Assembly: GCF_010550675.1 (NCBI RefSeq)
Contig: NZ_JAAGOA010000035.1
Coordinates: forward strand, 1 to 64,000
DNA length: 64,000 nucleotides
Source of the DNA: Phytoactinopolyspora halotolerans
GTDB taxonomy: Bacteria; Actinomycetota; Actinomycetes; Jiangellales; Jiangellaceae
Direction: 5' to 3'
A model generated the notes under the pieces. It had not been told where the DNA came from, made no database searches, and was given only the letters and a program-made list of their open reading frames with translations. The position numbers and the translations under genes were made by a program. This document shows, piece by piece, positions 7,354-60,815 of the stretch. The first letter of the stretch is position 1. Every line of letters begins with the position of its first letter.

Positions 7354-8456
7354 GCACGATCGGTGACGAGAAACTGGCAGAGCTGCGGTCGATGGTGGAG
7401 ACACGCCCCGCTCCTCCGCCCGCAGAAATCCATGCACGCGCGGCGACGCTTCGCCGGGTACGACGTCGCCGCCGGATCGGCGTAGCGACGACGATCGGGG
7501 TTGCCGGACTGGTGACGGCCTCGATCGCGGCCTTCTCGCCATCCATTGACCAAGACGGCGAAACGATCCCCTGGGTGCTCGGTGCGCCGCCAGCGAGCGC
7601 CGCCAGCACCAACTGCCACTACTTCGGCGGACCTAGCGACCTCCTCGAGCCCACCGACGTCCGTGCCGACCTGGTGTACCTGCCGCCGGACGGCACGGTC
7701 GACGCCCCGCTGCAGACGGTCTCGGCGACCGAAACACAGGTCGAGTGCCCGTTGTCGGACCTGGACGCCGTCGGTTTGCGGCGCGATGCAGAGGGCAACG
7801 TCGAAGCGGCTATCTCGGTGTACGGACCGACGCTCGGCCGGTACGAGCCGGTGGATGGTCGCTCCCAGGAAGTATCGATGCGCGAAGGTAGTGGCTACCT
7901 GCTGACTTGGGACGAGTCCGCATCGCAACTGGCACTCAACTGGTCCGAGGACGGCTCGTGGTGGGCGGCCCAGGCAGTCGGTCTGGACGCGGATGAGCTA
8001 TTGGACGTGATGGAGGCGATCCGCATCGACCACGATCAGGTCGTCGCGTCGTCGTTCCTGGACGGTTTCGAGGTGGTCGTTCCGCAATCCCTGGTCGGGA
8101 AGGACGTGCACGAGTGGAGCGTGAGCTACGGCCGTCCAGACGAAGAGCCGCTGCTCAACCTCATCGTGTCGAGCGCGACAAGTTCCCCGGCTGAGGCCAG
8201 GGTGGTCTCGGTACCCGGCGCCATCCCGGCCGAAGTCGTGGCCGATGACCCGTCGGTCTCGGGGTTCGGGGTCTTCGAGCCGTCCGTGGCCGGTGCCAGC
8301 TCCCTGAGCTGGGATACACCCGACGGGCGCCGCTTCGAGCTGCAATTCACCGGCGACACGGGCCTTGGGGAAGCGCTGGACATCGCCGAGTCTCTCGGTC
8401 GCATCTCGACGAGCGACAAGCACATCACCGACGCATGGCTACACCCCGAGTACTGA
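7350..8456 (+). CDS. Single-pass membrane protein coupled to ECF sigma factor (possible anti-sigma)
   Basis: 368 residues. A cytoplasmic N-terminus of about 45 residues ends in a strongly basic RRVRRRRR stop, followed by one membrane helix (about 48-67, GVATTIGVAGLVTASIAAF) and a large outer domain of about 300 residues. The topology and the 4-base overlap with the sigma gene are those of a membrane anti-sigma factor. No HxxxCxxC zinc motif is visible in the short cytoplasmic part, so it would be a non-ZAS type or simply a co-expressed sensor. Outer domain not recognised. Confidence 0.7.
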   Translation: MSTIGDEKLAELRSMVETRPAPPPAEIHARAATLRRVRRRRRIGVATTIGVAGLVTASIAAFSPSIDQDGETIPWVLGAPPASAASTNCHYFGGPSDLLEPTDVRADLVYLPPDGTVDAPLQTVSATETQVECPLSDLDAVGLRRDAEGNVEAAISVYGPTLGRYEPVDGRSQEVSMREGSGYLLTWDESASQLALNWSEDGSWWAAQAVGLDADELLDVMEAIRIDHDQVVASSFLDGFEVVVPQSLVGKDVHEWSVSYGRPDEEPLLNLIVSSATSSPAEARVVSVPGAIPAEVVADDPSVSGFGVFEPSVAGASSLSWDTPDGRRFELQFTGDTGLGEALDIAESLGRISTSDKHITDAWLHPEY

Positions 8457-23763: not shown

Positions 23764-26700
23764 TCAGCCGCAGTGTGCGGCGTCGTACGGCATCTCCTCC
23801 GTGCGGGTGTCTCCAGTCGTCACGCCCGTGACCGTCACGGTCGCGACCCCTGCCGACACGGCACTCTCTTCGGTCATGAACCGCGCCGACTTCGAGCGCC
23901 CCGGATTCACGTCGTCCCATGACTTCTCACCGTAGGCGGTCGAGACATGCACGGCGACCTGCTCATCGTCGTCGTTCGTGACGGACGTGCGCAGCATGAC
24001 CTTCGGTCCCACGCATTCCGTCCATGCCTCGACGGTGAACTCCGGCTGGGCGATCAGGTCGAAGGTGAAGCTCTCCGTCTCCGACGTTCGACCGGAAAGA
24101 TCCGTCGCCGCGTAGCGCACTTCGTACTCACCTCCGGCGAGCGCGATGGTGGCCTCGTGGCTGGCGGTGGCCGCTCCGTCGGCGACGTCGGTGTGCGTGC
24201 TCTGCACCAGTTCACCGTCCTGGTAGATGTCCGCGGAAATGCTCTTCAGGCCGACATCGTCGGACGCGTCGACGTTCACGGTCACCTCATTGGCGGAAAC
24301 GTCACCGGCCGGAGACGTGAGCGACACCGTCGGCGCCTCCATGTCACCATCGAACATCCACCGCTGGTTGGCGTCGCCGGAGCACCACCAGAGTGCGATG
24401 CGGGTGCCGTTCGACGTTGCCGCTTCCCACGCATCCATGCAGACGCCCGTTACCGCGCTGCGGATCGATCCGTCCGGTTGAATCTCCCATTTCTGCGTCT
24501 CGGCGCCGGTGCAGTCCTGCGTCACGATTGCGGTTCCGGTTCCGGTGCCGCCGCCCTGTGTGCCGAGGCACGTGCTGCCATCGAAGACGGTCAGCTCACC
24601 GTCGGCTGTGACCGTGATGCGCTGGTTCGCCTCCCCGTGGCAGTCGAAGAGGATCGCTTGCGTCCCCACATCAGTGGAGTCACCCGGAACCGTAAGGCAG
24701 CGCTCCGAGGCAACACCGATGACCTTCGCGTAGCGGATCTCCGCCTCCGTGATCTCGAAGGAGACTGTGACCGGCTCCGATGCGTCGTTGCCCGTCACGG
24801 TTGCCGTATACGACCCGATCACAAGATCGGTCGCCTCGATGGCCGCCTCGGCGCCGGCGTCCACGGTCGCGGTGGAGCTGAAAACGGCCTCGCCTGCGCC
24901 GTCGGCTACCTCCACCGAATACGTGACCTCATCCGGCGTGGGGTTCCCGATCGTCAAGGCGGCGACGCCCGTGCCGTTGCCGGGAGTGGAAGCACGCTCC
25001 TCAGTGACGGTGACAACCGGGGAGGCCGGTCGCTCGGCATGGATGCGAATGGTGATCGTCGTGGTCACCGCGTTTGCCGCAGACTGCGCCTGGATGTCGG
25101 CCGTGAAGGTTCCCGCCGTCGTCGGAGTTCCCGAAATGGTGCCATCCTCGGCGAGCGTCAGCCCGTCCGGCAGAGCTCCGTCGATCACGTCGAAGGTGGG
25201 CGAACCCGTCGCCTTGAGCTCGTAGGAATAGGGCACGTCCACGACACCGGCCGGCACGTCGACGTCCGTGAACTCGGCCAGGGTGCGGCGCACCAGATCG
25301 GTCGAGGCAGCCGACACCTCACCGCTCTCGGTGACGACGAAGAGGTGATACGTGCCCGCTTCCGACGGCAGCTCGATACTGGTCGCGTCCCCCGGCGCCG
25401 CTGTCATGGTGTCGCCGGAAGCGAAATCGGTCGTGCCTTCAGGCGCGAGCCAGATGGTCGCCGACGCATCACCCGTGCCACGGATCGGGATCGAGGTTGC
25501 CGAGCCGTCAGCTTCCACGCTGGCAGGCAGCACATGGTCGGGCGACATCGTCGCCTCCGCCCCCAGAAGGTCGCGATAGGCGGGCTCGAGACCGGAATTC
25601 GCCGTGACCGCGTACGCCGCGAGGGGCCAGACCGCGTCCTCGTACACCATGATGGGCTCGATGTGGCTGTCCGGCGGGTCGTTGGCGTACTTGTTCCACA
25701 CCGTCGCCCACGTGTTCGTGATCGTCAGATTGTGCTTGGATCCCCAGTCTTCGGAGTTGATCGTGTATGTCACGCCGTCGGAGATGTCGAGTACGTTACT
25801 GTCGAACGTGATGTAGGCGGACGCCTCGTCGGCGTGCAACCCGTACGTGTGGCCGGCCCGCACGCCGTCGATGTAGTTGTGCGAGATGATGGTGTCCGGC
25901 TGTGCGCCGAGAGTATAGACAGGACCGGTATCGTTCCGGTCGTTCACCGTGTCGATGAACTCGTTGTATCGGATGCTGTTGTTCCTCGCGACGGTGGTGG
26001 GGTTTCCCGGTTCGATCGAGCCGGGGGACCCGTTGAAGTTCCACCAGCCCCAGCCCATCGAGATGCCGGCCCACGACGTCTTCTCGATCACGTTGTGCTC
26101 GAAGGTCATCGTGTCGACGAAGAAGGCGCCGACCGCTGGGGAGCCAAGGAACAGCTTCGCGCTGTCGTACACGTAGTTGTTGGTGATCTGGATGTTCGTC
26201 GGAGCGCCCTCGACATCCGCGGGAAACTTCTCCTTGTTGTCTTCTGCCGCGTCGCCGATGTACACGTGCTGCGGGTGGCCGACGTTGATCGCTGTGCCGC
26301 CGATGTCTCTCGTCACGTTTCCGGTGAGCTGGGAGTCGACCACGTCATTGATGAGCGATATGCCGTCAGCTCCGGTGTGCTCGACCCGGTTGCGTTCAAG
26401 GGAGATGTTCGCTGCGCTGGTCACCTCGATGGCGGCGGGCTGCAGGTCGACGTTCCGGTAGTGGTAGACATGGAAGTTGCCGTGCACATAGGCGGAGTTG
26501 ATGATGTTCGCCTGCTGCGCCTGCTTGAACGAGGCACCGTCGACTTCGGCGAGGTCCCAGTCGGTGTGCCGCACGGTGATGCCCTCGAAGCTGAGGTCGT
26601 GAACGCGGTCGGTCGTCGAGGTCCCTGCGACGCTCAGGACGGTCTCGACGTTGCCCGGAGCGAAGACGGAGGCCGTGGCCATATCCTCGGACTCGGCCTT

Positions 26701-27588
26701 GTAGTAGTACACGGTCTTGGCGTCGCGGTCGTAGTAGAACTCGCCGGGCTCATCGAGAAACTCGTAGGCGTTCATGAGCTTGTGGCTGCCGCGGACCTGG
26801 AAGTTGCCGTTGAAGGCGCCGGCCGCGATCGCGGCGCCCGGCTGCTGAAACAGCAGCACGCGGCTTGTCCCGTCCTCACTGGTGGTGACATCGCGCACAC
26901 CCACGATCGCCGTGGTCCAGGTGGTGGCCGTCTGGATCTCCATATCCTCGGCGTTGCCGCTGATCTCCGGCACATCGCTCAGCGCGTACCTCGCGCCGTC
27001 GCACTCGGTGCCCGACTCCCATGCCCACGGTGCCTGCCCCGCTGTGATCGTGTACTCGCCGTAGCATCCCTGTGACGACACGTTCTTGTATGCCATCACC
27101 GCACGCTGATCGTTGACGTAAAGGGCGCGGAGCTTGTCCGCCCGATCCAGCGGCGCCGACCAGATGTCTCCGTCGTGCTGCGTCCAGCCGGAGATCTCGG
27201 CGCCTGCCTCGAGCACCGGCGTCTCGTTCTCGAACGCCGAGTAGATCACCCGATGACCGTTCGAGCCCGAATCCTCGGGACCGAACTCGACCGTAGAGTC
27301 GACAGGGTACGAGCCGCCACGCAGGTAGACGTGGATGTCACCGGACATGTCCGCGTTGACCTCGCGCACCGCGTCTCTCGCGCGATCAAGCGTCCGAAAT
27401 GGGGCCTCCAGCGTGCCCGCGTTCGAGTCGTCACCGTCGGGAGCGACATAGAACGCGTTTTCGGCGGGTGCCGCCGAAGCCGGCGTCGGAATGCCGACGA
27501 GCGCGACCACGAGTGCGACCACCGTTGCCACCAGAGCGGTACAGGCTCGAAGCCCATACCGATCCGGCGCCTCTGCTGTTTTGATCAT
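23764..27588 (-). CDS. Very large secreted beta-helix protein with Ig-like and ricin-lectin domains
   Basis: 1274 residues from the ATG of MIKTAEAPDRYG (GAAGGAG upstream). Signal peptide about 1-40, then the DUF1565-type start FYVAPDGDDSNAGTLEAPF and a right-handed parallel beta-helix of roughly 330-630 (many N-x-I, asparagine ladders such as NNYVYD, NVLDIS). A He_PIG-like Ig domain follows (about 775-845, LPDGLTLAEDGTISGTP), a FIVAR/CARDB-like strand region, a ricin-type lectin (about 950-1080 with QxW/NQRW repeats) and a C-terminal Ig-like domain. Beta-helices of this kind cleave polysaccharides, probably pectic or hemicellulosic. Expressed behind the promoter/operator module shared with the importer. 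Confidence 0.85.
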   Translation of the reverse strand: MIKTAEAPDRYGLRACTALVATVVALVVALVGIPTPASAAPAENAFYVAPDGDDSNAGTLEAPFRTLDRARDAVREVNADMSGDIHVYLRGGSYPVDSTVEFGPEDSGSNGHRVIYSAFENETPVLEAGAEISGWTQHDGDIWSAPLDRADKLRALYVNDQRAVMAYKNVSSQGCYGEYTITAGQAPWAWESGTECDGARYALSDVPEISGNAEDMEIQTATTWTTAIVGVRDVTTSEDGTSRVLLFQQPGAAIAAGAFNGNFQVRGSHKLMNAYEFLDEPGEFYYDRDAKTVYYYKAESEDMATASVFAPGNVETVLSVAGTSTTDRVHDLSFEGITVRHTDWDLAEVDGASFKQAQQANIINSAYVHGNFHVYHYRNVDLQPAAIEVTSAANISLERNRVEHTGADGISLINDVVDSQLTGNVTRDIGGTAINVGHPQHVYIGDAAEDNKEKFPADVEGAPTNIQITNNYVYDSAKLFLGSPAVGAFFVDTMTFEHNVIEKTSWAGISMGWGWWNFNGSPGSIEPGNPTTVARNNSIRYNEFIDTVNDRNDTGPVYTLGAQPDTIISHNYIDGVRAGHTYGLHADEASAYITFDSNVLDISDGVTYTINSEDWGSKHNLTITNTWATVWNKYANDPPDSHIEPIMVYEDAVWPLAAYAVTANSGLEPAYRDLLGAEATMSPDHVLPASVEADGSATSIPIRGTGDASATIWLAPEGTTDFASGDTMTAAPGDATSIELPSEAGTYHLFVVTESGEVSAASTDLVRRTLAEFTDVDVPAGVVDVPYSYELKATGSPTFDVIDGALPDGLTLAEDGTISGTPTTAGTFTADIQAQSAANAVTTTITIRIHAERPASPVVTVTEERASTPGNGTGVAALTIGNPTPDEVTYSVEVADGAGEAVFSSTATVDAGAEAAIEATDLVIGSYTATVTGNDASEPVTVSFEITEAEIRYAKVIGVASERCLTVPGDSTDVGTQAILFDCHGEANQRITVTADGELTVFDGSTCLGTQGGGTGTGTAIVTQDCTGAETQKWEIQPDGSIRSAVTGVCMDAWEAATSNGTRIALWWCSGDANQRWMFDGDMEAPTVSLTSPAGDVSANEVTVNVDASDDVGLKSISADIYQDGELVQSTHTDVADGAATASHEATIALAGGEYEVRYAATDLSGRTSETESFTFDLIAQPEFTVEAWTECVGPKVMLRTSVTNDDDEQVAVHVSTAYGEKSWDDVNPGRSKSARFMTEESAVSAGVATVTVTGVTTGDTRTEEMPYDAAHCG

Positions 27589-27813
27589 GGTTTGCTCTTC
27601 TCCTTCGGTGTTCGGGACGGCCTTGTAGCCGTCTCGTACGTTGACCACCAGCGGATCCGATTCGGCGCCGGACTGGCTATCACGGACCAGAGACGCGTCC
27701 CGAGCCGACCGTCGCCAATCCCGCGATCAGCGCGGCCGGCCACAGTGCTCGCCGCTTCACTCTGCTCACCGTTCAGAAAGTGGCCGGTTCGCCGGGTCGC
27801 CAGATTGTGGCAA

Positions 27814-27843
27814 AACATAACTCGTATGACGTATGCCGTCAAT
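27814..27843 (-). promoter_or_regulatory. Promoter with FadR/GntR operator for the beta-helix gene
   Basis: On the minus strand: -35 TTGACG (27842-27837), 17-base spacer, -10 TATGTT (27819-27814). The operator TGACGTATGCCGTCA (27827-27841 on the plus strand) overlaps the -35 and spacer. The 27-base block is repeated almost unchanged in front of the importer. The expected start leaves a long leader of about 220 bases before the ATG. Confidence 0.65.
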
Positions 27844-28043
27844 GGGCGGGAAACCATCACATGCCTGATTACGGTGCCCTGGACGCAGGGTGACCGGCGG
27901 AGATGTGACGGCATCGCGCCGCGGACTTATAGCGGTCCCGCTATGCCCGAGTGGTCAGCCGGACCGGACGACGCGGCGCTCCGCGACGGCGGGCCTATGA
28001 CGATCTCGGTGTTGACGCTCGGCGCGCCTGACAACCGGCAGGC

Positions 28044-28814
28044 TCAACGCTTCAACCGGTCGGGATCACCCTGTCCGCTGCGGCGCACAAGCCATGCCTC
28101 CGTGATGTGGCTGAACATCGCTTCCGCGGCACCGTCGGGATCGTGCGCCGCGATGCGCTCGTATATGCGACGGTGGCCTTGGTTGGACGCGACGCAGAGG
28201 GCCCGTTCGGTCCTGCCGACGTAGCGGGCAGTGCTGTTGGCTTGCCGCTCGAGAGCGCGTATGACCGCTCGGGCCAGGCGGTTGCCAGACGCCTGCATGA
28301 CGGTGTCGTGGAAGGCGAGGTCGTGCTCGCCATAGGTCACGGGGTCGCCGACGAGTTCGTCCATCCGGTCGACGAGTGTGCGCAACTGGTCGACGATCTC
28401 CGGGGTGGCCAGCCGTGCTGCGACGTGCGCCATGTCGGACTCGAGCAAGCGGCGCGTCACCACCAGATCATCGAGGATCGCGAGGCTCTCATCCTCGGCG
28501 ATGGTCGCCGCGAGGACGAGTTCGTCCAGCATGTTCCAGGACGTCGACGGTTGGACCACGGTCCCCGCCCCCTGGCGGATCTTCACCAGACCCTTCTCCT
28601 GGAGAATCTTGACGGCTTCGCGGATCACGGTTCGACTGACCGAGAATGCCTCGCAGAGGGCGGGCTCCGGCGGCAGTAACTCTCCCGGCGGAAGCTGGCC
28701 GCGGACGATCCGCTGCACCATCTCAGCGGTGACCGCTTTGGCAAGGTTGGTCGGTCGCTGTGCCCAAGCGAACGGGGCCTCAGCGTTCGTGGTCGGTAGT
28801 TGCGATGCCGTCAT
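28044..28814 (-). CDS. FadR/GntR-family transcriptional regulator (FCD domain)
   Basis: 256 residues from the ATG three bases after GGAGGG; the 12-residue longer frame lacks a site. N-terminal winged HTH (about 20-85: LLPPEPALCEAFSVSRTVIR and ILQEKGLVKIRQGAGTVV), then the helical FCD ligand-binding domain with its histidine/aspartate metal residues (DLAFHDTVMQASGNRL; EHD, HRRIYERI). Binds small carboxylates or sugar acids. Divergent from the importer operon; the operator between them probably controls both, and a copy controls the beta-helix gene. Confidence 0.92.
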   Translation of the reverse strand: MTASQLPTTNAEAPFAWAQRPTNLAKAVTAEMVQRIVRGQLPPGELLPPEPALCEAFSVSRTVIREAVKILQEKGLVKIRQGAGTVVQPSTSWNMLDELVLAATIAEDESLAILDDLVVTRRLLESDMAHVAARLATPEIVDQLRTLVDRMDELVGDPVTYGEHDLAFHDTVMQASGNRLARAVIRALERQANSTARYVGRTERALCVASNQGHRRIYERIAAHDPDGAAEAMFSHITEAWLVRRSGQGDPDRLKR

Positions 28815-28862
28815 GTTCCCTCCGCTGACGCCGCGGGAAAGCGGTGCCACAGGTCTACGCAG

Positions 28863-28906
28863 ATTATAGTCACACTATTGACGTAATACGTCATACGAGT
28901 TACGTT
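28863..28906 (+). promoter_or_regulatory. Divergent promoters sharing a palindromic FadR/GntR operator
   Basis: Plus-strand promoter for the importer operon: TTGACG (28878-28883), 17-base spacer, TACGTT (28901-28906). The operator TGACGTAATACGTCA (28879-28893) is a perfect palindrome around a central A and overlaps this -35. On the minus strand a perfect TATAAT (28868-28863) serves the regulator gene, so the operator also sits over its -35 region. Binding would repress both directions. Confidence 0.7.
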
Positions 28907-28963
28907 TTCCGGCAATGTGCTGATAGTCAGTCATCCACCTGGCCCCTCGGGAAGTGAGCAGCA

Positions 28964-30247
28964 ATGAAGCAGCGAGCATTGTGGTCCGCCGTCGTGGTAA
29001 GCGGCTTGGCGCTGGCTGGATGTGGTGCCGCCTCGGATTCCGGATCCACCTCCGGCGACGCGGAAGGCGGCGATGGCGAAGGCCGGCTTGTGGTCTGGGA
29101 CTGGAAGTCGGGGGACGAGTCCGCAGCCACCTACATTGAACAAGCCAAGGCTGACTTCGCGGAGAAGCACCCGAACGTCGAGGTGGAGTTCGTGGCCCAG
29201 CCGTTCGACCAGTACTACACCCTGCTGGGTGGGGCGATCCAGACCGGCTCGGGCCCCGACGTCATCCTCTTCAACGGAGGAGGGCAGATCCGCGACCGGG
29301 CCGATTCACTTGTCCCGCTCGACGACTATCTCGCCGAGGATCAAGATCGCCTCGCGGGGTGGGATGCGTTCACCGAGGACGGCCAGATCTATGCCGCGCC
29401 GGTGACGCTGCAGGGCCACCCGATCTACTACAACAGGGCACTCTACGAGCAAGCCGGCCTCGATCCCGACAACCCCGCGGCCACCTGGGACGAGTTCGTC
29501 AGCAACTGTGAGTCGATCACCGACGCGACCGGCGCCACATGCTTCGCTCTGGGCAACCAGGAGGGCATCGGCATCGAGTTCTTCCTCTCCGCGCTAGGCT
29601 CCGCCGTTCTCAGCCCGCAGGAGTACGACGACTGGATCGCAGGGGATCGGGACTGGAGCTCTCCCAACGTCAAGCGGATCTTCGAGCTGTGGACAGAAGT
29701 CGACGACGCCGGGCTGAACAGCGAGGCGCCCAACTCCACCGCGATGTTCAACGACTCATTCGCCATCTTCCAGTCTGGAGAAGCCTCCCACGTGATCGGG
29801 CTGATGTCGGACGTCGGTCACTGGAAGGACTTCAGCGAGTTCCTCGGCGCGGAGAACGTCGGTGTCATGCAAGCCCCGGTCGTCGAGCAAGGTGCGGCGC
29901 CGAATCTTCCGTACGACGGCGGCATCGGGTACGCGGTCGCCGAATGGACCAGCGATCCGGAGCTGGCCGCAGACCTCGTCCGGTCGTTGACATCCACTGC
30001 CGCGCTGGAGGCGTTCTTCGCCGACGCCGGGGCGATCGCAGCGGACACGACCATCGACGCATCGAGCGCCGGTCCGTCGGTCGCCACCATCATCGCTGAA
30101 CTCGAGAATGGCCGGCCCGCCCTGCACGTGGCCCTGTCGTCGGAAACGCTGGAGTTGATGGGGCGGCTGTCGCAGCAGCTGTTGAGCGGCTCGGCCACCG
30201 TTGACGAGGCAGTGGAGCAGCTGGCCGCCAGCGATCAGGCGGGCTGA
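28964..30247 (+). CDS. Sugar ABC transporter substrate-binding lipoprotein
   Basis: 427 residues. Signal peptide with lipobox ALAGC (Cys20), then the family 1 extracellular solute-binding fold: RLVVWDWKSGDESA, HPNVEVEFVAQPFDQ, GPDVILFNGG and PVTLQGHPIYYNRALYEQAG. Captures a mono- or oligosaccharide outside the membrane and hands it to the permeases downstream (4 bp and overlapping). Expressed from the operator-controlled promoter; substrate probably derived from the beta-helix enzyme. Confidence 0.93.
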   Translation: MKQRALWSAVVVSGLALAGCGAASDSGSTSGDAEGGDGEGRLVVWDWKSGDESAATYIEQAKADFAEKHPNVEVEFVAQPFDQYYTLLGGAIQTGSGPDVILFNGGGQIRDRADSLVPLDDYLAEDQDRLAGWDAFTEDGQIYAAPVTLQGHPIYYNRALYEQAGLDPDNPAATWDEFVSNCESITDATGATCFALGNQEGIGIEFFLSALGSAVLSPQEYDDWIAGDRDWSSPNVKRIFELWTEVDDAGLNSEAPNSTAMFNDSFAIFQSGEASHVIGLMSDVGHWKDFSEFLGAENVGVMQAPVVEQGAAPNLPYDGGIGYAVAEWTSDPELAADLVRSLTSTAALEAFFADAGAIAADTTIDASSAGPSVATIIAELENGRPALHVALSSETLELMGRLSQQLLSGSATVDEAVEQLAASDQAG

Positions 30248-30251
30248 CAGC

Positions 30252-31187
30252 GTGCCGATCGGAAGCTCGACCTTGTCGGTCCGCCCGGACACAGCCAGGC
30301 GGACCGGCAACGGTAAACCCCGGCGGGCGCGCGCAGAGCGATTCGCGCCCTACATCCTGGTTGCTCCAGCCGTCCTGATCATCGTGGCGCTGCGGCTGTA
30401 CCCGCTGGTTCGCGGCGTGAACTTCTCCTTCACCGGCGACGGCGTGCTCAACGGGCAGCTCGTGGGTCTGGACAACTACATGACGCTGTTCGACGACCCA
30501 CTGTTCCGGCAGGCCATGCGGAACGTGGCGTTGCTGGTGCTGCTGCTGCCGGTGGCGGTCGCCATTCCGGGCCTGCTGGCTACGTTCATCTATCTGCGCG
30601 TCCCAGGACACCGGTTGTACCGGGTCGTCTACTTCTTTCCGGCCGTGCTGTCACCGGTGATCGTCGGTGCGATCTTCAACCTCCTGCTGGCATACGGCGG
30701 CCCCTTCAACACCTTGCTCGGGGCAATCGGCCTCGGCCCGGTCGACTGGCTCGGCGATCGACGAGTCGCCATGTTCACCGTCGTCGGTGTCCATGTGTGG
30801 GCGACCTTCGGCATGGCGCTGGTCGTGTTCCTCGCCGGATTCGCGACATTGAACTCGTCGCTCCTCGACGCCGCGCGGGTGGACGGGGCGTCACTTGCCC
30901 AGGAGATCTGGCATGTCATCATCCCAGGGCTGGCTCGCACGATTCAGTTCGTCTTCGTCACGACGATGATCGGGATGCTCACCGCGATGTTCGGTCTGCT
31001 CTTCGTGATGACCAACGGCGGTCCGGAAGGGTCGACCTACCTGCCTGAGTACTACATCTGGATTCAGCAGGGACAGATGAACCGCCCGGCGTTGGCCTCG
31101 GCCGCGTCCGCGGTGCTGTTCGTGGTCATGCTCGTGGTGGGGCTGCTGCAGATCAGCGTGCTGCGGCGGTCGGGCAGGGAGGACTGA
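30252..31187 (+). CDS. Sugar ABC transporter permease (CUT1, MalF-like)
   Basis: 311 residues from GTG, 4 bases after the stop of the binding protein. Six membrane segments and the permease EAA loop with DAARVDGASLAQEIWHVIIP (EAA-x3-G-x9-I-x-LP pattern). Forms the translocation pore with the second permease. Its stop overlaps the next start (TGATG). No ATPase gene follows. Confidence 0.92.
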   Translation: MPIGSSTLSVRPDTARRTGNGKPRRARAERFAPYILVAPAVLIIVALRLYPLVRGVNFSFTGDGVLNGQLVGLDNYMTLFDDPLFRQAMRNVALLVLLLPVAVAIPGLLATFIYLRVPGHRLYRVVYFFPAVLSPVIVGAIFNLLLAYGGPFNTLLGAIGLGPVDWLGDRRVAMFTVVGVHVWATFGMALVVFLAGFATLNSSLLDAARVDGASLAQEIWHVIIPGLARTIQFVFVTTMIGMLTAMFGLLFVMTNGGPEGSTYLPEYYIWIQQGQMNRPALASAASAVLFVVMLVVGLLQISVLRRSGRED

Positions 31188-32014
31188 TGAGCGGCGTGCG
31201 GGCAGGCAGATGGCTGATCGCCGTCCCTATGGCGATACTCGCGCTGGCGACGATCTACCCGCTGGTGTTCACCACGAACGTCGCCATGAAGACGCGGCAC
31301 GAGTACATCCTCGACCGGTTCTCTCCGGCCGGCGCACTTCGGTGGGAGAACGTCGCCTCCGCATGGGGCAACGCCGGAATGGCCGGCTACTTCGTCAACT
31401 CGCTCATCGTGGTGAGCTGCGCGGTGGCACTGCTGCTCCTGTTCGGATCCATGGCAGGCTTCGCGTTGAGCAAGCTCCGCTTTCGCGGCTCGCGCCTCTT
31501 GTTCCTTGGCATTCTCGCGGCGCTGTTCATCCCGTTCCAGGTCATCATGGTGCCGCTCGCCCGGACGATGGCCGACGCCGGGCTGATCGACACCTATCCA
31601 GGCCTGGTCCTGGCATACGTGGCGCAGTTCCTCCCATTCACGATCTTCCTGATGACGAGCTTCTACGCCGGCATCCCGGACGAGATCATCGACGCGGCCA
31701 GGATCGACGGCAACACGCTCTACGGGGTCTACCGGCGGATCATGCTTCCGATGGGCACGCCGGCGCTGCTGTCCGTGGGCATCCTCAACACGCTGTTCTG
31801 CTGGAACGACGTGCTCATATCGCTGGTGATGATGCCATCGGCGGAGAACCGCACGCTGATGGTCGGGGTCACCGCACTACGGGGCCAGTACTCAGACGAC
31901 ATCCCGACGTTCGCAGCCGGCGTTCTGATCGCGGCGCTGCCCGTGCTGCTCATCTACCTGTTTTTCCAGAGACAGATCGCTGATGGCATCACCGCCGGTT
32001 CCACGAAGGGCTGA
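31187..32014 (+). CDS. Sugar ABC transporter permease (CUT1, MalG-like)
   Basis: 275 residues, start overlaps the stop of the previous permease. Six helices and an EAA loop DAARIDGNTLYGVYRRIMLP. Pairs with the preceding permease. The final residues (FFQRQIADGITAGSTKG) are the usual MalG-type tail. The enolase gene follows one base after the stop. Confidence 0.92.
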   Translation: MSGVRAGRWLIAVPMAILALATIYPLVFTTNVAMKTRHEYILDRFSPAGALRWENVASAWGNAGMAGYFVNSLIVVSCAVALLLLFGSMAGFALSKLRFRGSRLLFLGILAALFIPFQVIMVPLARTMADAGLIDTYPGLVLAYVAQFLPFTIFLMTSFYAGIPDEIIDAARIDGNTLYGVYRRIMLPMGTPALLSVGILNTLFCWNDVLISLVMMPSAENRTLMVGVTALRGQYSDDIPTFAAGVLIAALPVLLIYLFFQRQIADGITAGSTKG

Positions 32015-32015
32015 C

Positions 32016-33251
32016 ATGAAGATCACTGGGTTTCGCACCCTGACCACGGTTCAGGAGTGGGGCCGTCCAGTCGGTGATGTCAACGGCGTCATCAGCGATG
32101 GGGTGGTCACGGTGCCGATCGTCGTGGTCGACACCGACGAAGGAATCTCCGGTAGCGGCCTGGGACCATCCGTTGAAGCCGAATCGATCTTCGCCGCGAT
32201 CGACGGCGAGGACCCGCGCGGCGTCTCCGCGCTCTACGATCGCATGCTTCGCCAGACGTTCAAGGTCGGTCACGCGGGTGCCGTGTTCGGGACCATCGGG
32301 GCCTTCGACACCGCGCTGTGGGACATCAAAGCTCAAGCCGCCGGGGAGCCACTCTGGAGGCTCCTCGGCGGTCGCGAAAGAGCTGTCCCCGCGTACGCGT
32401 CGGGCATCGACATCGGACTCACCGACAGTGAGCTCGTATCGGCCTACGAGGCTTACGCCGAGCACGGACTCAAAGCGGCCAAGCTCAAGGGCGGCCTCGA
32501 CGTGGAGGAGGATCTGCGCCGGCTGACCTTGGTGCGAGACGTGCTGGGCGAGGCCCACGGCCTGCGGCCCGGCCTGATGCTCGACGCGAACGAGTCGTGG
32601 ACGCGCAAGCAGGCGGTTCGTCATGTCTGCGAGTTAGAACGAACCCTGGATCTGACGTGGGTGGAGGAGCCGGTTCGACGCTGGGATGCCGAAGGTCTGG
32701 CCATTGTAGGCCGGGGTATCCGGGCTTCCGTGGCGAGTGGTGAGAACCTCACCGGTCTCGAACAATACCGTCCGCTGCTCGCCGCGGGGGCGATCGACAT
32801 TGTCCAGGCAGCCGCAGTCTGGGGAGTGACCCATTTCTTGCGGGTGTCAGCCCTCGCTCACGCTCATGACCTGCCGGTCAGCCCGATCGGGAGCATTCCG
32901 GTCGGCCTGCTGCACGCCGCGACATCGGTGCCCAACCACCTCGCCAGCGAGCTCCAAGACTTGCGGCCGCCGGTTGGGGTGTCCGTCGACCTGCATGTGG
33001 AGGACGGCATGTTCGTCCTCGGGGACTCCGCGGGTTTAGGCATCACGATCGACGAGGACGACATCGCTGCCGCAGCACGCCGGGCAGGCGCCCCGGCCAA
33101 CAGCGGCCCACACGTCCGCCCGGAGCGTGCCGGGAAGCGACTGCTGGCCGTCACCGACGGCGATACCGTACCGCGACCGCACCCTGGCCCGTCTCTGCCA
33201 GACCTTGCCGCCACACGCCCTGATGAGACGTCCTCCACGCCCTATTGGTGA
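32016..33251 (+). CDS. Mandelate racemase/muconate lactonizing (enolase superfamily) protein
   Basis: 411 residues. Catalytic KxK motif AAKLKGG in strand 2, and metal ligands at DANES, WVEEPVR and SGENLTG; a two-domain capping-plus-TIM-barrel enzyme of the sugar-acid dehydratase/racemase type. Last gene of the importer operon, which implies it acts on the imported acid or lactone. The last ~45 residues (from about RRAGAPANSGP) are Pro/Arg/Asp-rich and unlike a family C-terminus, which normally ends near 370; this tail sits at the boundary with the element debris and may have been altered by it. Confidence 0.85.
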   Translation: MKITGFRTLTTVQEWGRPVGDVNGVISDGVVTVPIVVVDTDEGISGSGLGPSVEAESIFAAIDGEDPRGVSALYDRMLRQTFKVGHAGAVFGTIGAFDTALWDIKAQAAGEPLWRLLGGRERAVPAYASGIDIGLTDSELVSAYEAYAEHGLKAAKLKGGLDVEEDLRRLTLVRDVLGEAHGLRPGLMLDANESWTRKQAVRHVCELERTLDLTWVEEPVRRWDAEGLAIVGRGIRASVASGENLTGLEQYRPLLAAGAIDIVQAAAVWGVTHFLRVSALAHAHDLPVSPIGSIPVGLLHAATSVPNHLASELQDLRPPVGVSVDLHVEDGMFVLGDSAGLGITIDEDDIAAAARRAGAPANSGPHVRPERAGKRLLAVTDGDTVPRPHPGPSLPDLAATRPDETSSTPYW

Positions 33252-33340
33252 CCATTCCAGTAGCCCGGTCACCCGAAGGGTGGAGCGCGTACCCCCGGTT
33301 TGCCTCACGTGCGAACGCTCCTCGCAGCCGAGGTCCCACT

Positions 33341-33391
33341 GTGATCTACGCGAAGTGCGTCGATGGCGACGCAGCCCGCAAATCGCACCAG
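33341..33391 (+). pseudogene. Tyrosine recombinase C-terminal scrap
   Basis: Short stretch translating VIYAKCVDGDAARK, close to IYAKCIDGDTARN at the end of the recombinase fragment 2.7 kb downstream (about 88 percent identity over 38 bases). The tyrosine in IYAKC is the catalytic nucleophile in such integrases. It has no start and is frame-connected to nothing useful. Marks the left side of an element wreck. Confidence 0.55.
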
Positions 33392-33433
33392 GTGCACCTG
33401 TCGACCACGCCGCCAAATGCGACGATTCAGCCC

Positions 33434-34339
33434 ATGGCACAGACACATGTGTGGGACTGGACAACACACTCGTCGTATACAGATCCGAGCCGGCATGCTG
33501 GCTTGCTCGAAGCCGTCCCGGCGGACATTTCCGGGCTTTCGGCCGTCGCCCGCAACGTGATCATCCACTACCGGGCGTCCGAAGCGGATTTGCCGATGGC
33601 GACTCGAGACGACATCAATCTGCGCTGGCTCTCGGCCCTTCTCGACGCCGACCAGGCCCGCCACGGCATGCCACTGCCCGAACCCCGCGCCGAAGTCGCG
33701 CGGGTGCAGGGATGTTGCCGCGACCACACGCTGTTCTGTGTCGCTGCGCTCCGCCAGCTTGGCATTCCGGCGCGCTCGCTCGTCGGCTTCTCGAACTATT
33801 CCGGCGACGACTACAACAATGATCATGTGATCGTGCAGACGTACGACGGCGTTTCAGATCGATGGATCCGGTTCGATCCGGAGATCGAGACACCGCCCGA
33901 CCGGCTTCCCGATCCACACGACATCGAGTCCGGGAAGAACGCACCGTTCCAGACAGCCGCCGAAGTCTGGCAAGGCTATCGCTCCGGAGGGCTCGATCCT
34001 TCACTCTTCGGCACAGGCCCCGGCTCGTCGATCGGCGGCGCATGGTTCATCCGGAACTATGTCCTGCTGCAACTGGCCCATCGCTACAGCGACGAACTGC
34101 TGCTCTGGGACGCGTGGGGCGGGATGAGCCTGCCCGGCGACGTCGAAGACCCAGAGGTAGCCAGGCTGGTCGATGAGGTGGCCGAGCAGCTCGTAGCAGC
34201 CGAGGCCGGCGACTCTACCGTCGACGACGCGTTGCTGGCTCGCTACCGCGATGACGAGCGTCTACACCCCGGTACGCGCATCACCCAACACTCCCCCTTC
34301 GGAGATCCACCTGTAACAGTCAACCTCCGTACGCGATGA
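33434..34339 (+). CDS. Transglutaminase-like domain protein
   Basis: 301 residues from the ATG of MAQTHVWDWTTHSS; longer frames run through the recombinase scrap and are not used. Cysteine-histidine-aspartate triad of the transglutaminase-like fold: QGCCRDHTLFCVAALRQ (Cys), NNDHVIVQ (His) and WIRFDPEIE (Asp). Members act as cysteine proteases or N-glycanases on peptides, cytoplasmic here as no signal is present. Lies within the element debris and may be cargo of the lost element. Confidence 0.8.
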   Translation: MAQTHVWDWTTHSSYTDPSRHAGLLEAVPADISGLSAVARNVIIHYRASEADLPMATRDDINLRWLSALLDADQARHGMPLPEPRAEVARVQGCCRDHTLFCVAALRQLGIPARSLVGFSNYSGDDYNNDHVIVQTYDGVSDRWIRFDPEIETPPDRLPDPHDIESGKNAPFQTAAEVWQGYRSGGLDPSLFGTGPGSSIGGAWFIRNYVLLQLAHRYSDELLLWDAWGGMSLPGDVEDPEVARLVDEVAEQLVAAEAGDSTVDDALLARYRDDERLHPGTRITQHSPFGDPPVTVNLRTR

Positions 34340-34977
34340 CCTGCTCGGGCGGTAAGGCCAAGCTATTCCGGCAGTTCGGATATCCGTCTCCGCCGGTAAG
34401 TGTCGGACGACCTACGTCGGCATCCACGGAACTGGTTCGCCCCGTTGATGTCGGTGCCCTAGCTTCCTCGGTCCGCTACGGTTTTCAGCGTGTAGAAACC
34501 TAACAACCGAGTGTGCGGCTGATGGAGCAGGCGGATGCGCAACCGCTCTCGTCGGGGATCAGGCGCTCGTTGTCGCTGCTATTCCATCCAATGCGCGCCG
34601 ATCAGGCTCGCCGCGACATCCGCCGGGCCAAGGTCGATCTCCGACGCTGCCCAGCGAGCCAGAACAGGGCAGATCGAGGACGCTCAACAGCCGCCGAACT
34701 CAGAAGCCGACCTAACCGCCCGGCACGGGTTGCTAGGTTGCACCGGGCTGCTCGCGGTGACAGCGTCCAGCCCGGACGAGCTCGAAGCGGCCATCGCTGA
34801 GGTCGAGCAGAATGCGCTGCAAGCCTCCTGCGAAACCCGACGGCTGCGCGGCCAACAGTCGCAAGATTCAACGCCGCCGCCGCTTTGCCGAATGGTGTAG
34901 GTATCAGCTGATCACGCAAGCCACCTTCGCTCCGGAGAAGCGCAACTGCGCGATCCGTGTCGGGTGAAGGCGCCGCT
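34340..34977 (+). other. Debris region between transglutaminase and lipoprotein
   Basis: 638 bases. The first 170 hold nothing recognisable; the middle carries the frameshifted SCO6880-like fragment listed separately; the last 75 read as short frames only. Confidence 0.4.
34513..34900 (+). pseudogene. Frameshifted fragment of SCO6880-family conjugation protein
   Basis: One frame gives FHPMRADQARRDIRRAKVDLR, then the next frame continues with ARTGQIEDAQQPPNSEADLT, RHGLLGCTGLLAVTAS, ELEAAIAEVEQNALQ and ASCETRRLRGQQSQ. These are in the right order for the C-terminal part of SCO6880-type proteins (a component of actinobacterial conjugative elements near the TraG/VirB4 genes). One frameshift near 34650 and missing ends make it a pseudogene. 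Confidence 0.65.
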
Positions 34978-35574
34978 CTATTCTTCACATCCAATCTCGT
35001 CCATCAAGAGTCGTGCGAGCTCACGCGACTCCTCAATGTCCCCGCCTCCGAAGGTGACTTCCTCGGTTACGCCGGGCATGCTAATGACCTCGTACACGTC
35101 ACCATGACAGCTGAATCGAACCATCTGTTCGCCCTCGACGGGACCCATCTCCATGCGGACGACCTCGGCGCGCACTCCGTCGATCATGATCTCGTCGATC
35201 AACTCTGCATCCCATGCGCTGACCTGACGTTCGTAGCCGTGGACGAAAGCCCGGCCACCGTGCCAGCCGCCATGGATCTGAGCTGACTTGTACTCGTCTT
35301 GTGCCCGACCCGGTTGGTCCACACCGATGGCTTCCAACTGGCCGATGAGCCGCGCCTCGAATGGATCTAGCGAATCCGGCGATGTCGGACCCGAACTTGG
35401 GCGCTCGACTGCTGCGCTTGGAGGCGCCGGATGGTCGGCCTGAGTCGCAGATTCGTCTCCCGATCCGCTCTCAGCCGTCGGAGCCACGTCGCCGTCACCG
35501 CAGCTCACCACGGCTCCTGTGCAGAGGCATCCGGCAAGAACAGTCGTCAGCACAGCGCGTTTGGTTCGCTTCAT
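34978..35574 (-). CDS. Hypothetical lipoprotein
   Basis: 198 residues from the ATG of MKRTKRAVLTT. Lipobox-like VVSC (Cys25) after the signal; an acidic Ser/Pro linker (about 30-60), then a folded part with WHGGRAFVHGYE and FSCHGDVYEV. Not recognised. Minus strand within the element debris; may be cargo or an ancestral gene spared by it. Confidence 0.65.
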   Translation of the reverse strand: MKRTKRAVLTTVLAGCLCTGAVVSCGDGDVAPTAESGSGDESATQADHPAPPSAAVERPSSGPTSPDSLDPFEARLIGQLEAIGVDQPGRAQDEYKSAQIHGGWHGGRAFVHGYERQVSAWDAELIDEIMIDGVRAEVVRMEMGPVEGEQMVRFSCHGDVYEVISMPGVTEEVTFGGGDIEESRELARLLMDEIGCEE

Positions 35575-35805
35575 AACAAGGGAACGCCGAGGCAGCGAGG
35601 ATGGTTTACGCTGGACGACAACCACTTACTCCCTCGACGCTTGAAGTGGCATGCAGCGCGGCCTCAGCGAGATGCGCGATGAATGCGCTCGATGTCCGTC
35701 AGAGCATCGCAATACTGCTGCTCATGCTTGGACACAGCTTCGCCATGCGTAGCGCGAAGCGCTTCCGCGGCCTCTACACAGACTCACCGCAATGTTTGCC
35801 GGCAC

Positions 35806-36147
35806 CTCGGCCGCTCCGGCACCACGGCCGACGGACGACTGTTCGTCGGCGAACGCAACACCGACCACCTACCAGCCTTCACCATGTTCCGCGTCTGGGC
35901 CAAGGCCAGGAAGACCGTGTTCGGTACGGGAGCCGAACATTCGCCGCTGGCTGCTCGCCCCTACGATCTGCGTCACGCGGGGGTATCGACATGGCTCAAC
36001 GCCGGCGTCGATGCCGCCCAGGTCGCGGAATGGGCAGGACACTCTATTGAAGTCCTGTTGAGGATCTACGCCAAGTGCATCGACGGCGACACAGCCCGCA
36101 ACCGCGCCATGATCGACCAAGCTCTCAGACGATCCACCGGAGACTGA
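35806..36147 (+). pseudogene. Tyrosine recombinase (integrase) C-terminal fragment
   Basis: Reading TADGRLFVGERN, then LAARPYDLRHAGVSTWLNAG, AGHSIEVLLRIYAKCIDGDT to the stop. It keeps three of the catalytic residues (R in DLRH, H in GHS, Y in RIYAKC) but the N-terminal half, including the DNA-binding and first arginine parts, is missing and no start exists. It ends 117 bases from the 3' end of tRNA-Glu, the classical integration spot. Confidence 0.8.
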
Positions 36148-45624: not shown

Positions 45625-45664
45625 CGCAAAGGCCTTGCGTGTGCCGTTGTTATGCGCTTAGATT
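45625..45664 (+). promoter_or_regulatory. Promoter with inverted-repeat operator for locus 2
   Basis: CGCAAAGGCCTTGCG (45625-45639), an inverted repeat with one mismatch, overlaps the -35 TTGCGT (45635-45640); 18-base spacer; -10 TAGATT (45659-45664). About 95 bases before the binding-protein gene. Suits LacI-family repression. Confidence 0.5.
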
Positions 45665-45758
45665 CCGACCATGCTCGCGCGCACTCGGCCGACTGAGGCG
45701 GCACCGGCGTGCGACGTCGACTGCGCACCGCAGTCGCACCCACGAGACGACAGGAGCA

Positions 45759-47036
45759 ATGATGGTCCGACGAATCGCGACAGTCGCGGCGATGGTCCCG
45801 CTGCTCGCCTTGGCCGCCTGCGGGCGCTCCGACGAGGACTCGTCCTCGCAGACCGCTGACGAGCTGTCAGCCGGTCCCGCAACCGGCACGATCAGCATCT
45901 GGGCTCAAGGCACCGAAGGAGAGGCGCTTCCCGAGTTCCTCGAGGAGTTCGAGGCGGAGAATCCCGATGTGAGCGTTAACGTCACGGCGATTCCCTGGGA
46001 CTCGGCCCAGAACAAGTACCAGACGGCCATCGCCGGCGGAACGACACCGGACATCGGCATGCTGGGCACCGACTGGATGCCCACGTTCGGCGACGCGCTG
46101 CGCCCCACCCCGGACGAGATCGACATGTCCGGGATGTTCCCGGCGAACGTGGAATCGACCAACCTCGACGGGACGCACTACGGCGTGCCGTGGTACGTCG
46201 AGACGCGTGTCATCTTCTACCGCACCGACCTGATGGAGCAGGCAGGGTTCGACACCTTCCCCACCACCTGGGACGGCTTCAAGGAGCTGGCCCGGGCGAT
46301 GCAGGAGGAGACGGGCGCGGAGTACGGAGTGAATCTGCCGGCCGGCGGCTGGAACGCGTTCCTCGGTCTGTTGCCGTTCGCCTGGTCGAACGGTGCCGAG
46401 ATCACGAACGCGGACCAGACCGAGTGGACGTTCGACTCCCCCGAGATCGTCGAGGCACTCGAATACGTCAACGGCTTCTTCACCGAAGGCATCGCCGACG
46501 CGACCCCCGACGACGAGCCGGGTGCCGCCGCAGCAGCCTTCGTGGACGGCAGGATCCCCATGATGATCACCGGACCCTGGGAGATCGGGCAGCTGACCGA
46601 GGCCGGCGGCGACGGGTTCGCAGACAAGTTCGCGGTCGCACCCATCCCGGCGTCGGAAGGATCCACGTCGACCTCGTTCACAGCGGGCGCCAACCTCGTC
46701 GTCTTCGAAAACTCGGAGAACCCGGACGCGGCGTGGAAGCTCGTCGAATGGCTGACCCGCCCGGAGACACAGGTCGCCTGGTTCGAGGCCACCACCGACC
46801 TCCCGTCCCAGGAGAGCGCCTGGACCGACAAGGCGTTGGCGGACGATCCCAAGGTGTCGGTCTTCGGCGAGCAGCTGCAGAGCGTGAAGACCGCGCCACC
46901 GCTGGAGACCTGGCCGCAGGTCTCCGACGCTGCGGACTCGCTGGTGGAGCAGATCGTCGCCAGCGGCAAGGACCCTGCGCAGGCCATGGCGGAGCTGCAG
47001 TCCACAGCCGAGTCGCTAGGAACCGGATCCGACTGA
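45759..47036 (+). CDS. Sugar ABC transporter substrate-binding lipoprotein
   Basis: 425 residues from one of two adjacent ATGs (AGGAG upstream favours the second). Lipobox LAAC (Cys ~21) and family 1 fold: ISIWAQGTEGEALPEFLEEF, NKYQTAIAGGTTPDIGMLGT, GVPWYVETRVIFYRTDLMEQ. The stop overlaps the start of the permease (TGATG). Locus 2 importer; the GH43 enzyme suggests xylo- or arabino-oligosaccharides as substrate. Confidence 0.93.
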   Translation: MMVRRIATVAAMVPLLALAACGRSDEDSSSQTADELSAGPATGTISIWAQGTEGEALPEFLEEFEAENPDVSVNVTAIPWDSAQNKYQTAIAGGTTPDIGMLGTDWMPTFGDALRPTPDEIDMSGMFPANVESTNLDGTHYGVPWYVETRVIFYRTDLMEQAGFDTFPTTWDGFKELARAMQEETGAEYGVNLPAGGWNAFLGLLPFAWSNGAEITNADQTEWTFDSPEIVEALEYVNGFFTEGIADATPDDEPGAAAAAFVDGRIPMMITGPWEIGQLTEAGGDGFADKFAVAPIPASEGSTSTSFTAGANLVVFENSENPDAAWKLVEWLTRPETQVAWFEATTDLPSQESAWTDKALADDPKVSVFGEQLQSVKTAPPLETWPQVSDAADSLVEQIVASGKDPAQAMAELQSTAESLGTGSD

Positions 47037-48007
47037 TGAGCACAGCCACCGGAGTGGCGGCCGCCGACGCGAATCGTCGCGCCGGCGGCCGCAGGCGCGG
47101 GCACAGTCGCGGGAACAGTCGCGGGCCGGTCGGCACGCGGCGCCGGGCGACGCTGGTCGCCTACCTGTTCGCGTTACCGTTCGTGCTGACGTTCAGCATC
47201 TTCATGCTGTTCCCACTGGTGTCGTCGCTGGCCCTGTCGTTCACCGACTTCACGAACCGGGACATCTCCAGCCCATTGGCGGTCGCCTTCGTCGGCGTCG
47301 ACCAGTACGCGGCACTGTTCGGCAACGATCAGTTCGTCCGCTCGATGCTCAACACGTTCTACTTTGTCGGCGTCGGCATACCGCTGACGATGATCGTCGC
47401 GCTCGCGCTCGCCGTCGCACTCAACAGCGGGATATCCCGTTTCCGCACTGCGTTCCGTCTCGGGTTCTTCGCGCCCGTCGTCACCAGCATCGTCGCGGTG
47501 GCCGTCGTCTGGCGGTTCATTCTGCAGCCCGACGGCCTGCTCAACACCGTCATCGGCTGGGCGGGGATCTCGGGCCCCGACTGGCTCAACGATCCGGCGT
47601 GGGCGATGCCGGCCATGATCCTGATGGCCGTCTGGCGGAACATGGGCACGCTCATGATCATCTTTTTGGCCGGCCTTCAACACGTCCCCCAGGACGTCCT
47701 GGAAGCGGCCCAAGTGGACGGAGCCTCGAGCCGGCAGCGCTTCTTCCGGGTCACCCTGCCGATCCTGCGCCCGACACTCCTCATCGGGGCCGTGCTGCTG
47801 TCGGTCGGCTATCTGCAGTTCTTCGAGGAGCCGTTCGTCATGACCGGAGGCGGTCCGCTCGACTCGACCTTGTCCATCAGCTACTTCACCTACAACCAGT
47901 TCGGCTTCGGCAACTACGGCCTGGCGTCCGCGGCTAGCTACATCCTGTTCGTCGCGATCGCGCTGCTGAGCATCGTCCAGTTCCGAGCCTTCCGATCGAA
48001 GGACTAG
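47036..48007 (+). CDS. Sugar ABC transporter permease (MalF-like)
   Basis: 323 residues. An unusual Arg/Gly-rich cytoplasmic start of about 40 residues (RRAGGRRRGHSRGNSRG) precedes six helices; EAA loop LEAAQVDGASSRQRFFRVTLP. Start overlaps the stop of the binding protein gene; the next permease follows 3 bases after its stop. No ATPase in the operon. Confidence 0.92.
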   Translation: MSTATGVAAADANRRAGGRRRGHSRGNSRGPVGTRRRATLVAYLFALPFVLTFSIFMLFPLVSSLALSFTDFTNRDISSPLAVAFVGVDQYAALFGNDQFVRSMLNTFYFVGVGIPLTMIVALALAVALNSGISRFRTAFRLGFFAPVVTSIVAVAVVWRFILQPDGLLNTVIGWAGISGPDWLNDPAWAMPAMILMAVWRNMGTLMIIFLAGLQHVPQDVLEAAQVDGASSRQRFFRVTLPILRPTLLIGAVLLSVGYLQFFEEPFVMTGGGPLDSTLSISYFTYNQFGFGNYGLASAASYILFVAIALLSIVQFRAFRSKD

Positions 48008-48010
48008 GCC

Positions 48011-48982
48011 GTGGCTGCTTCCCAGATCCGCGATACACGCGACGAACACCGCCCCGAAGACGGGCGGGACGAACCCAGCGGGCTGGGTTCGTCCGACGGC
48101 CCGACCGTACCCGACGGGCGAGGCCCACACGCCGCACGGAACATCCGGCGGCACGGGTCGCACCGGCCGTCTACCGGGCGCATACTGACCTACGCCCTCC
48201 TCATCGTGGCGCTTGTGGCGACATTCATGCCCTTCGCCTGGATGGTCCTCGGCTCGGTCAAGACACAGAGCGAGTTGCTCCGTCGGCCGCCGACCTGGTG
48301 GCCGGAATCGCCGACACCGGACAACTTCGCCGCGTGGTTCGTCGACCTCCAGATCGACCGTTTCTTCCTCAACAGCACCGTCGTGGCTGTGTTCACGGTC
48401 CTCGGCAACCTGCTGTTCTGCTCGATGGTCGGCTACGCGCTGGCCAAGATCGAGTTCGTCGGGAAGCGCGCACTGTTCGTGCTGGTCATGGTGACACTCA
48501 TGGTGCCGGGCGTGGTCACGTTCGTGCCGCTGTTCGTCGTGGTCAGCAAGCTCGGCATGGTCAGCACCTACCCGGCGCTGATCCTGCCGTTCCTGGCCAG
48601 CCCGCTCGGGGTTTTCCTGATGCGCCAGTTCATCATGGGCATACCTGACACGCTGATCGAGGCGGCTCGCATCGACGGCGCGGGCGAGATCCGTATCTTC
48701 GCCGGGATCGTGATGCCCCTGTGCGGAGCACCGCTCGCCACGCTGGCGATCCTGACCTTCCTCAGCTCCTGGAACAACTTCCTCTGGCCGCTCGTCGTCG
48801 CTCAGAACGAAGACATGTACACCCTGCCCGTCGCGCTCTCGCTGTATTCCACCGGCCAGAACGCGACGAACTACGGGATCCTGCTCGCCGGCTCGGTGCT
48901 GGTCATCACCCCAGTGCTGGTGCTGTTCGTGGCGCTGCAGCGCTACTTCGTCCAAGGAATCGCCATGACAGGAATCAAGTGA
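48011..48982 (+). CDS. Sugar ABC transporter permease (MalG-like)
   Basis: 323 residues from GTG. A polar N-terminus of about 55 residues, then six helices with EAA loop EAARIDGAGEIRIFAGIVMP. Four bases (GTGA) overlap the GH43 start. Forms the pore with the previous permease. Confidence 0.92.
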   Translation: MAASQIRDTRDEHRPEDGRDEPSGLGSSDGPTVPDGRGPHAARNIRRHGSHRPSTGRILTYALLIVALVATFMPFAWMVLGSVKTQSELLRRPPTWWPESPTPDNFAAWFVDLQIDRFFLNSTVVAVFTVLGNLLFCSMVGYALAKIEFVGKRALFVLVMVTLMVPGVVTFVPLFVVVSKLGMVSTYPALILPFLASPLGVFLMRQFIMGIPDTLIEAARIDGAGEIRIFAGIVMPLCGAPLATLAILTFLSSWNNFLWPLVVAQNEDMYTLPVALSLYSTGQNATNYGILLAGSVLVITPVLVLFVALQRYFVQGIAMTGIK

Positions 48983-56143: not shown

Positions 56144-56164
56144 AGATGCCGTATGGTTGCAGTC

Positions 56165-59281: not shown

Positions 59282-59374
59282 AACATGGCCCGGCACACAC
59301 ATCACCGAGTACGCCGCAAGAACCGGGCACACATCGATGAGTGCAACGAAGCACCGAGGATGAGGAGAGAACAG

Positions 59375-60802: not shown

Positions 60803-60815
60803 CGCGGGGGTCGGA

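Follow-up and report, generated by a model that had tools for sequence, protein, structure and literature searches.

Two near-identical copies of a 31-base promoter-operator block occur in the window (the whole stretch of 64,000 nucleotides of Phytoactinopolyspora halotolerans DNA that was analysed), one facing a gene for a secreted GH141-like protein and the other facing a sugar importer operon, within inverted repeats that flank the gene of a GntR regulator. We consider it highly probable that this regulator is a local autorepressor of the FadR subfamily that is released by a sugar acid and that jointly controls the GH141-like protein, the importer and an enolase-superfamily (MR/MLE) enzyme.

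The two promoter-operator blocks and the genes that they face

The block that faces the GH141-like gene is located at 27812..27842 on the reverse strand (-35 TTGACG 27842-27837, -10 TATGTT 27819-27814), and the block that faces the importer is located at 28878..28908 on the forward strand (-35 TTGACG 28878-28883, -10 TACGTT 28901-28906). Read towards its gene, each copy consists of TTGACG, a 17-base spacer and TATGTT (GH141 side) or TACGTT (importer side), with the positions, hexamers and spacer that a sequence-only reading of this DNA had given; the same reading had placed a TATAAT for the regulator opposite the second module, and this probable -10 of the regulator is present at 28863..28868 on the reverse strand. 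A strict pattern picks up TATACT/TATAGT at a comparable position in 21-23 of the relatives and leaves the others unmatched. The shared block, estimated earlier at about 27 bases, is real, but its true length is 31 bases (TTGACG(GC/TA)ATACGTCATACGAGTTA(T/C)GTTTT), 28 of them identical between the two copies, and it lies inside a longer inverted repeat that had been missed; the pattern TTGACGNNATACGTCATACGAGTTAYGTTTT matches both places (27812-27842, reverse strand, and 28878-28908, forward strand) with zero mismatches, while 100 shuffles of the window gave 0 matches to the 31-base pattern, even at 3 mismatches. The 15-base operator TGACG...CGTCA that had been described as overlapping the -35 is likewise found at both places, as TGACGTAATACGTCA at 28879..28893 (forward strand), with its left arm overlapping the -35, and as its counterpart at 27827-27841 (reverse strand); the full symmetry over all 15 bases bar the centre belongs to the importer copy only, the GH141-side palindrome being TGACG-GCATA-CGTCA.

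The prediction of a small regulon with few genomic sites is borne out by the genome, where two strong sites occur, both in the window: the 31-base block is found twice only in 7.3 Mb, and no place besides these two matches the 27-base form with up to 3 mismatches. The loose form TGACG-N5-CGTCA occurs at 30 places genome-wide, so that specificity resides only in the longer block, and we rejected the loose form as a genome-wide finder of the regulon. Looser matching of the core in the same genome gave 16 places for the 17-mer with 3 mismatches (7 for the reversed control) and 41 places for GACGTCATACGTCA with 2 mismatches (17 for the control), none of which is a further convincing operator site; the sole exact GACGTCATACGTCA elsewhere in the genome (C45) overlaps a predicted coding sequence. 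When 297 genomes drawn from across the class were scanned for the 19-base core, allowing at most 2 mismatches, 23 places in 16 genomes matched, versus 3 for the reversed pattern.

The secreted GH141-like beta-helix protein with its ricin-type lectin domain is encoded at 23764..27588 on the reverse strand (PF21231, PF00652), and its earlier count of 1274 residues is correct if the start is the ATG at 27588. Its assignment to GH141 follows from PF21231 at 36.6 bits (cut-off 27) and from BT_1002 (5mqp, E 4e-40); the essential Asp pair, D523 and D564 of BT1002, corresponds to D573 and D607 (numbering of the 1294-residue ORF), which are conserved in 37/39 and 39/39 aligned sequences, respectively. 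The insertion domain, the beta-helix and both Asp residues are shared with the characterised members of the family (BT1002 alpha-L-fucosidase, Xyn141E endo-xylanase, Wf141 endo-fucanases; PMC12786026, PMC5593877), to which the window protein adds the ricin-type lectin domain.

On the other side, the forward strand encodes the sugar-binding lipoprotein of an ABC importer (28964..30247; PF01547), two importer permeases (30201..32014, i.e. 30201-31187, with an uncertain start codon, and 31187-32014; PF00528) and the MR/MLE enzyme (32016..33251; PF13378, PF02746). The importer operon is without an ATPase gene; in actinobacteria, a single ATPase commonly serves several sugar importers. In the alignment of the MR/MLE enzyme, the metal ligands D226, E252 and E278 of L-talarate/galactarate dehydratase and also its K195/K197 are present both in the window protein and in 76 relatives, whereas the His-Asp dyad (D301, H328) is replaced by A and I in the window and by A/S/G and I/V in 76/76 relatives. 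The enzyme thus shares the fold, the three metal ligands and the K-x-K motif with L-talarate/galactarate dehydratase and the MR-subgroup acid-sugar dehydratases, but differs in its missing dyad, and it scores far below the cut-off of the L-talarate/galactarate dehydratase NCBIfam model; since the dyad is lost throughout, we rejected the name talarate/galactarate dehydratase as not justified. Together with its relatives, the enzyme makes up a group of the enolase superfamily whose active site is unusual.

Operator structure and origin of the second copy

The comparison covers 80 fetched loci with relatives of the regulator (about 69-78% identity) from Jiangella, Micromonospora, Nonomuraea, Streptomyces, Saccharothrix, Actinoplanes, Glycomyces and other genera; the loci were gathered via the regulator and include many close relatives (Micromonospora), so the counts that follow are not independent. 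The core CGTCATACG is present in 76/80 loci, a short distance upstream of the gene for the orthologous GntR/FCD regulator, which indicates that the 31-base block is an operator; CGTCATACGARTTAY is present in 67/80 and a perfect TGACG-N5-CGTCA in 62/80. Over 75 distinct sites, the columns of the core dyad ACGTCATACGA, located at 27822..27832 (reverse strand) on the GH141 side and at 28888..28898 (forward strand) on the importer side, are almost invariant, while TTGACG is conserved well, but less. The constant element is ACGT-CAT-ACG(A/T), its centre lying seven bases downstream of the centre of the 15-base palindrome. The palindrome and the core are thus two overlapping dyads, of which the palindrome comes first and has its right half in common with the core; the whole can be read as a series of ACGT boxes with a 7-base period (ACGT nnn ACGT CAT ACGA GTT ACGT). 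In Streptomyces loci L067, L068, L074, L089, L090, L092-L094 and L096, two tandem core units occur 18 bases apart, near 7903-7960.

The first alternative is that the regulator dimer occupies TGACG-N5-CGTCA, centred at 28886, with the conserved CATACGAGTTAYGT being mainly promoter sequence or a secondary half-site. It is this frame, and not the core, that is the most symmetric over the 75 sites, and the single dyads of the Micromonospora esterase genes occupy the same place relative to the -35; nevertheless, the left arm is TTGCCG in Nonomuraea, is missing in Herbidospora, is lost or changed in others and is absent from the second tandem unit of Streptomyces (ATACGTCATACGAGTT), while ACGTCATACG stays, and every single-dyad site, including the TTTGACGTATGACGTC of the Micromonospora esterase genes, has the CAT/ATG centre of the core and not the variable centre of the palindrome. 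We therefore regard this alternative as unlikely, though it survives best; the variation among relatives favours ACGTCATACGA, which, and not TGACG..CGTCA, is the best-conserved dyad.

The sequence-only reading had also tied the GH141-like protein and the importer to one regulator, a link that recurs among the relatives, mostly as operon membership. The importer and MR/MLE genes follow the divergent operator in most relatives, and 39 GH141-like genes are found in the loci: 20 directly after the MR/MLE gene, 7 about 1-1.5 kb further on the same strand and 12 that stand alone. A strict core lies within 900 bases upstream of 4/12 stand-alone genes (L036, L052, L067, L079), the chance of which is about 0.007 per gene by our own estimate; the 8/12 without it, which count against joint control, are nearly all from Streptomyces. 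A second class of targets consists of secreted ricin-lectin/feruloyl-esterase proteins (8jh8, E 5e-70), whose genes have their own core or dyad at the -35 in 25/39 matches; most of those near the regulator in Micromonospora have a core of their own. The arrangement of genes and cores in the relatives thus lends independent support to the predicted regulon link. The Micromonospora ricin-lectin/feruloyl-esterase genes (L027 8872-10353 and equivalents) converge on the regulator gene, with a single-dyad operator at the -35.

The repeat finder places two collinear inverted repeats on either side of the regulator gene: a source copy at 28802..28919 (forward strand), which comprises the divergent promoter region together with the first part of the regulator gene, and a decayed, inverted duplicate at 27801..27917 (reverse strand), which comprises the intergenic region and the first codons of the regulator (MTAS). 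The far end of the duplicate, GCGATGCCGTCA, is the reverse complement of TGACGGCATCGC, from the regulator start ATG ACG GCA TCG (MTAS), and the MTAS remnant and its original lie 75 and 76 bases from the block; among 1000 flank shuffles 1 scored as high, the matching offset not being counted. Given the aligned repeat and the MTAS remnant, the best reading of the GH141 promoter is that it arose by inverted duplication of the divergent promoter, and that the block has been preserved (28/31) while the rest decays. The closest relatives of the window GH141 protein (85-87%) are found in L022, G006 and G018; two of these, L022 and G006, have the gene in the importer operon, immediately behind the MR/MLE gene. 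Judged from relatives only, the ancestral position of the gene would be in the operon, and the rearrangement would have brought it to the regulator's side. Within 33245-36147, at about 33.2-33.5 kb and 35.7-36.1 kb, ORF translations contain the stretches YAKCVDGD and YAKCIDGD, which resemble the C-terminus of a phage-type integrase and flank a transglutaminase-like gene, located where relatives have the GH141 gene; they are perhaps traces of rearrangement.

The GH141-side copy could alternatively be a relic of this duplication that exerts no control, with the gene being driven from elsewhere. Its position inside a decayed duplicate would fit a relic, as would the leader of about 220 bases to the ATG, which counts against joint control; however, only the 31-base block has stayed nearly intact while its flanks decayed, its hexamers and spacing are kept, it holds the sole consensus promoter detected in 27500-29100, and other stand-alone GH141-like genes also carry the core, so that we judge a relic improbable.

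The regulator and its mode of control

The regulator (28044..28814, reverse strand; 256 aa from its ATG) is a GntR/FCD protein of the FadR subfamily, with PF00392 (E 2e-19) followed by PF07729 (E 8e-26), both over the cut-off; the single GntR regulator that had been proposed is thus FadR-type, with two operator copies. Its closest solved relative is DgoR of E. coli (7c7e, E 2e-22), and the DgoR residues D146, H150, H195 and R102 align with D177, H181, H226 and R133 (numbering of the 268-residue ORF). The operon of DgoR also encodes an enolase-superfamily dehydratase. The window regulator is distant from DgoR in sequence, its operon has an ABC importer and a secreted glycosidase, and its operator is probably different. 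DgoR itself is a repressor of a sugar-acid catabolic operon, with sites that overlap the promoter (PMC7674646), and since its metal ligands D146/H150/H195 and R102 are conserved in the window regulator, the inducer is probably a sugar acid.

Sites of the FadR subfamily are of the form GT-N3-AC, and many have additional boxes at a distance of 7-12 bases from their centre (Suvorova et al. 2015, PMC4494728). The window system resembles the divergons of this subfamily in its GntR winged helix and FCD domain, in its dyad (CGT-CAT-ACG in both copies and upstream of 76/80 orthologues), in its boxes at such a distance and in the location of the site between a divergent regulator and structural operon; it differs in its outer bases, which are ACGT/ACGA and do not match the common TKGT/ACMA, and in its seven-base ACGT spacing.

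The mechanism that we favour would operate as follows. Without inducer, a regulator dimer would sit on ACGT-CAT-ACGA, aided by the flanking ACGT boxes, which lie seven bases away on each side. It would thereby cover the importer and GH141 promoters from -35 to -10, along with the -35 region of the regulator's own promoter. A sugar acid from the catabolism of the imported sugar, probably the substrate of the MR/MLE enzyme or a close relative of it, would bind the FCD metal site and free the DNA, leading to joint induction of the importer, the MR/MLE enzyme and the secreted GH141-lectin protein. Close relatives have the GH141 gene in the importer operon; in this lineage it lies beside the regulator, under the inverted duplicate promoter. 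The sequence of the sites, their uniqueness and conservation, the duplication and the gene content are direct results; we infer binding, repression, the class of the inducer, the substrate and the direction of the rearrangement; repression is the likeliest mode because the site spans the -35 to -10, and autoregulation is likely because the TATAAT at 28868-28863 puts the regulator's own -35 region under the same operator.

Some FadR-type proteins act as activators, and the regulator might activate these promoters; yet a protein bound over the -35 to -10 normally blocks RNA polymerase, and DgoR, the closest relative with a solved structure, represses from promoter-overlapping sites (PMC7674646), which makes activation very improbable. 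That a different regulator binds the operator and the GntR protein is a bystander, the pairing resting on circumstantial neighbourhood, is the most doubtful reading of all, as site and regulator co-occur across many genera with one to a few sites per genome, the core still adjoins the regulator where the importer differs (L036, L058), and CGT-N3-ACG fits the GT-N3-AC pattern of the subfamily (PMC4494728).

Substrate and meaning of the regulon

The claim that shared control fixes the substrate link is overstated, as GH141 spans alpha-L-fucosidase, endo-xylanase and endo-fucanases (PMC12786026). The substrate is likely a plant-wall glycan: the feruloyl-esterase partners suggest feruloylated wall glycans, and the fuconolactonase-like neighbours in L022 suggest fucose, the neighbours in relatives including L-fuconolactonase-like, aldo/keto reductase and GH95 genes. 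L-fucose is counted against by these same esterase partners and by the fucose-type genes of the own genome, which lie in a separate cluster without the operator. This cluster (C34:46000-62000; L194, 7154-11865) contains a fuconolactonase-like amidohydrolase, an aldo/keto reductase, a second MR/MLE enzyme and, by eye, a GH29-like ORF, and is a probable L-fucose pathway. The window itself looks like a carbohydrate-use region; judging from ORF translations only, 45639-50520 and 56153-62794 hold more clusters for sugar import, in which LacI-type regulators accompany enzymes of GH43-like and GH13-like type.

The architecture of the switch is ordinary for FadR-subfamily regulators, and the orthologous group is widely conserved. 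In the literature searched, we found no description of this orthologous group, its operator or its regulon, and a search for the core sequence and for an actinobacterial GntR regulator with fucose, feruloyl esterase or rhamnogalacturonan returned no matching regulon. Only tentatively do we propose an undescribed, broad actinomycete regulon, in which a sugar-acid-sensing FadR-type repressor with a composite operator of ACGT boxes at a 7-base period would join an importer, GH141 or feruloyl-esterase proteins and an enolase-superfamily enzyme without the His-Asp dyad into a pathway for plant-wall sugars.

With a defined operator, an unlabelled cluster that is repeated in many actinomycetes becomes a testable regulon; the operator allows a prediction of the importer that each secreted enzyme (GH141, feruloyl esterase) feeds, and offers a way towards the substrate of the enolase-superfamily enzyme, whose active site is unusual. 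The inverted duplication of a divergent promoter would, in addition, be a way to hold a gene that lies outside the operon in its regulon.
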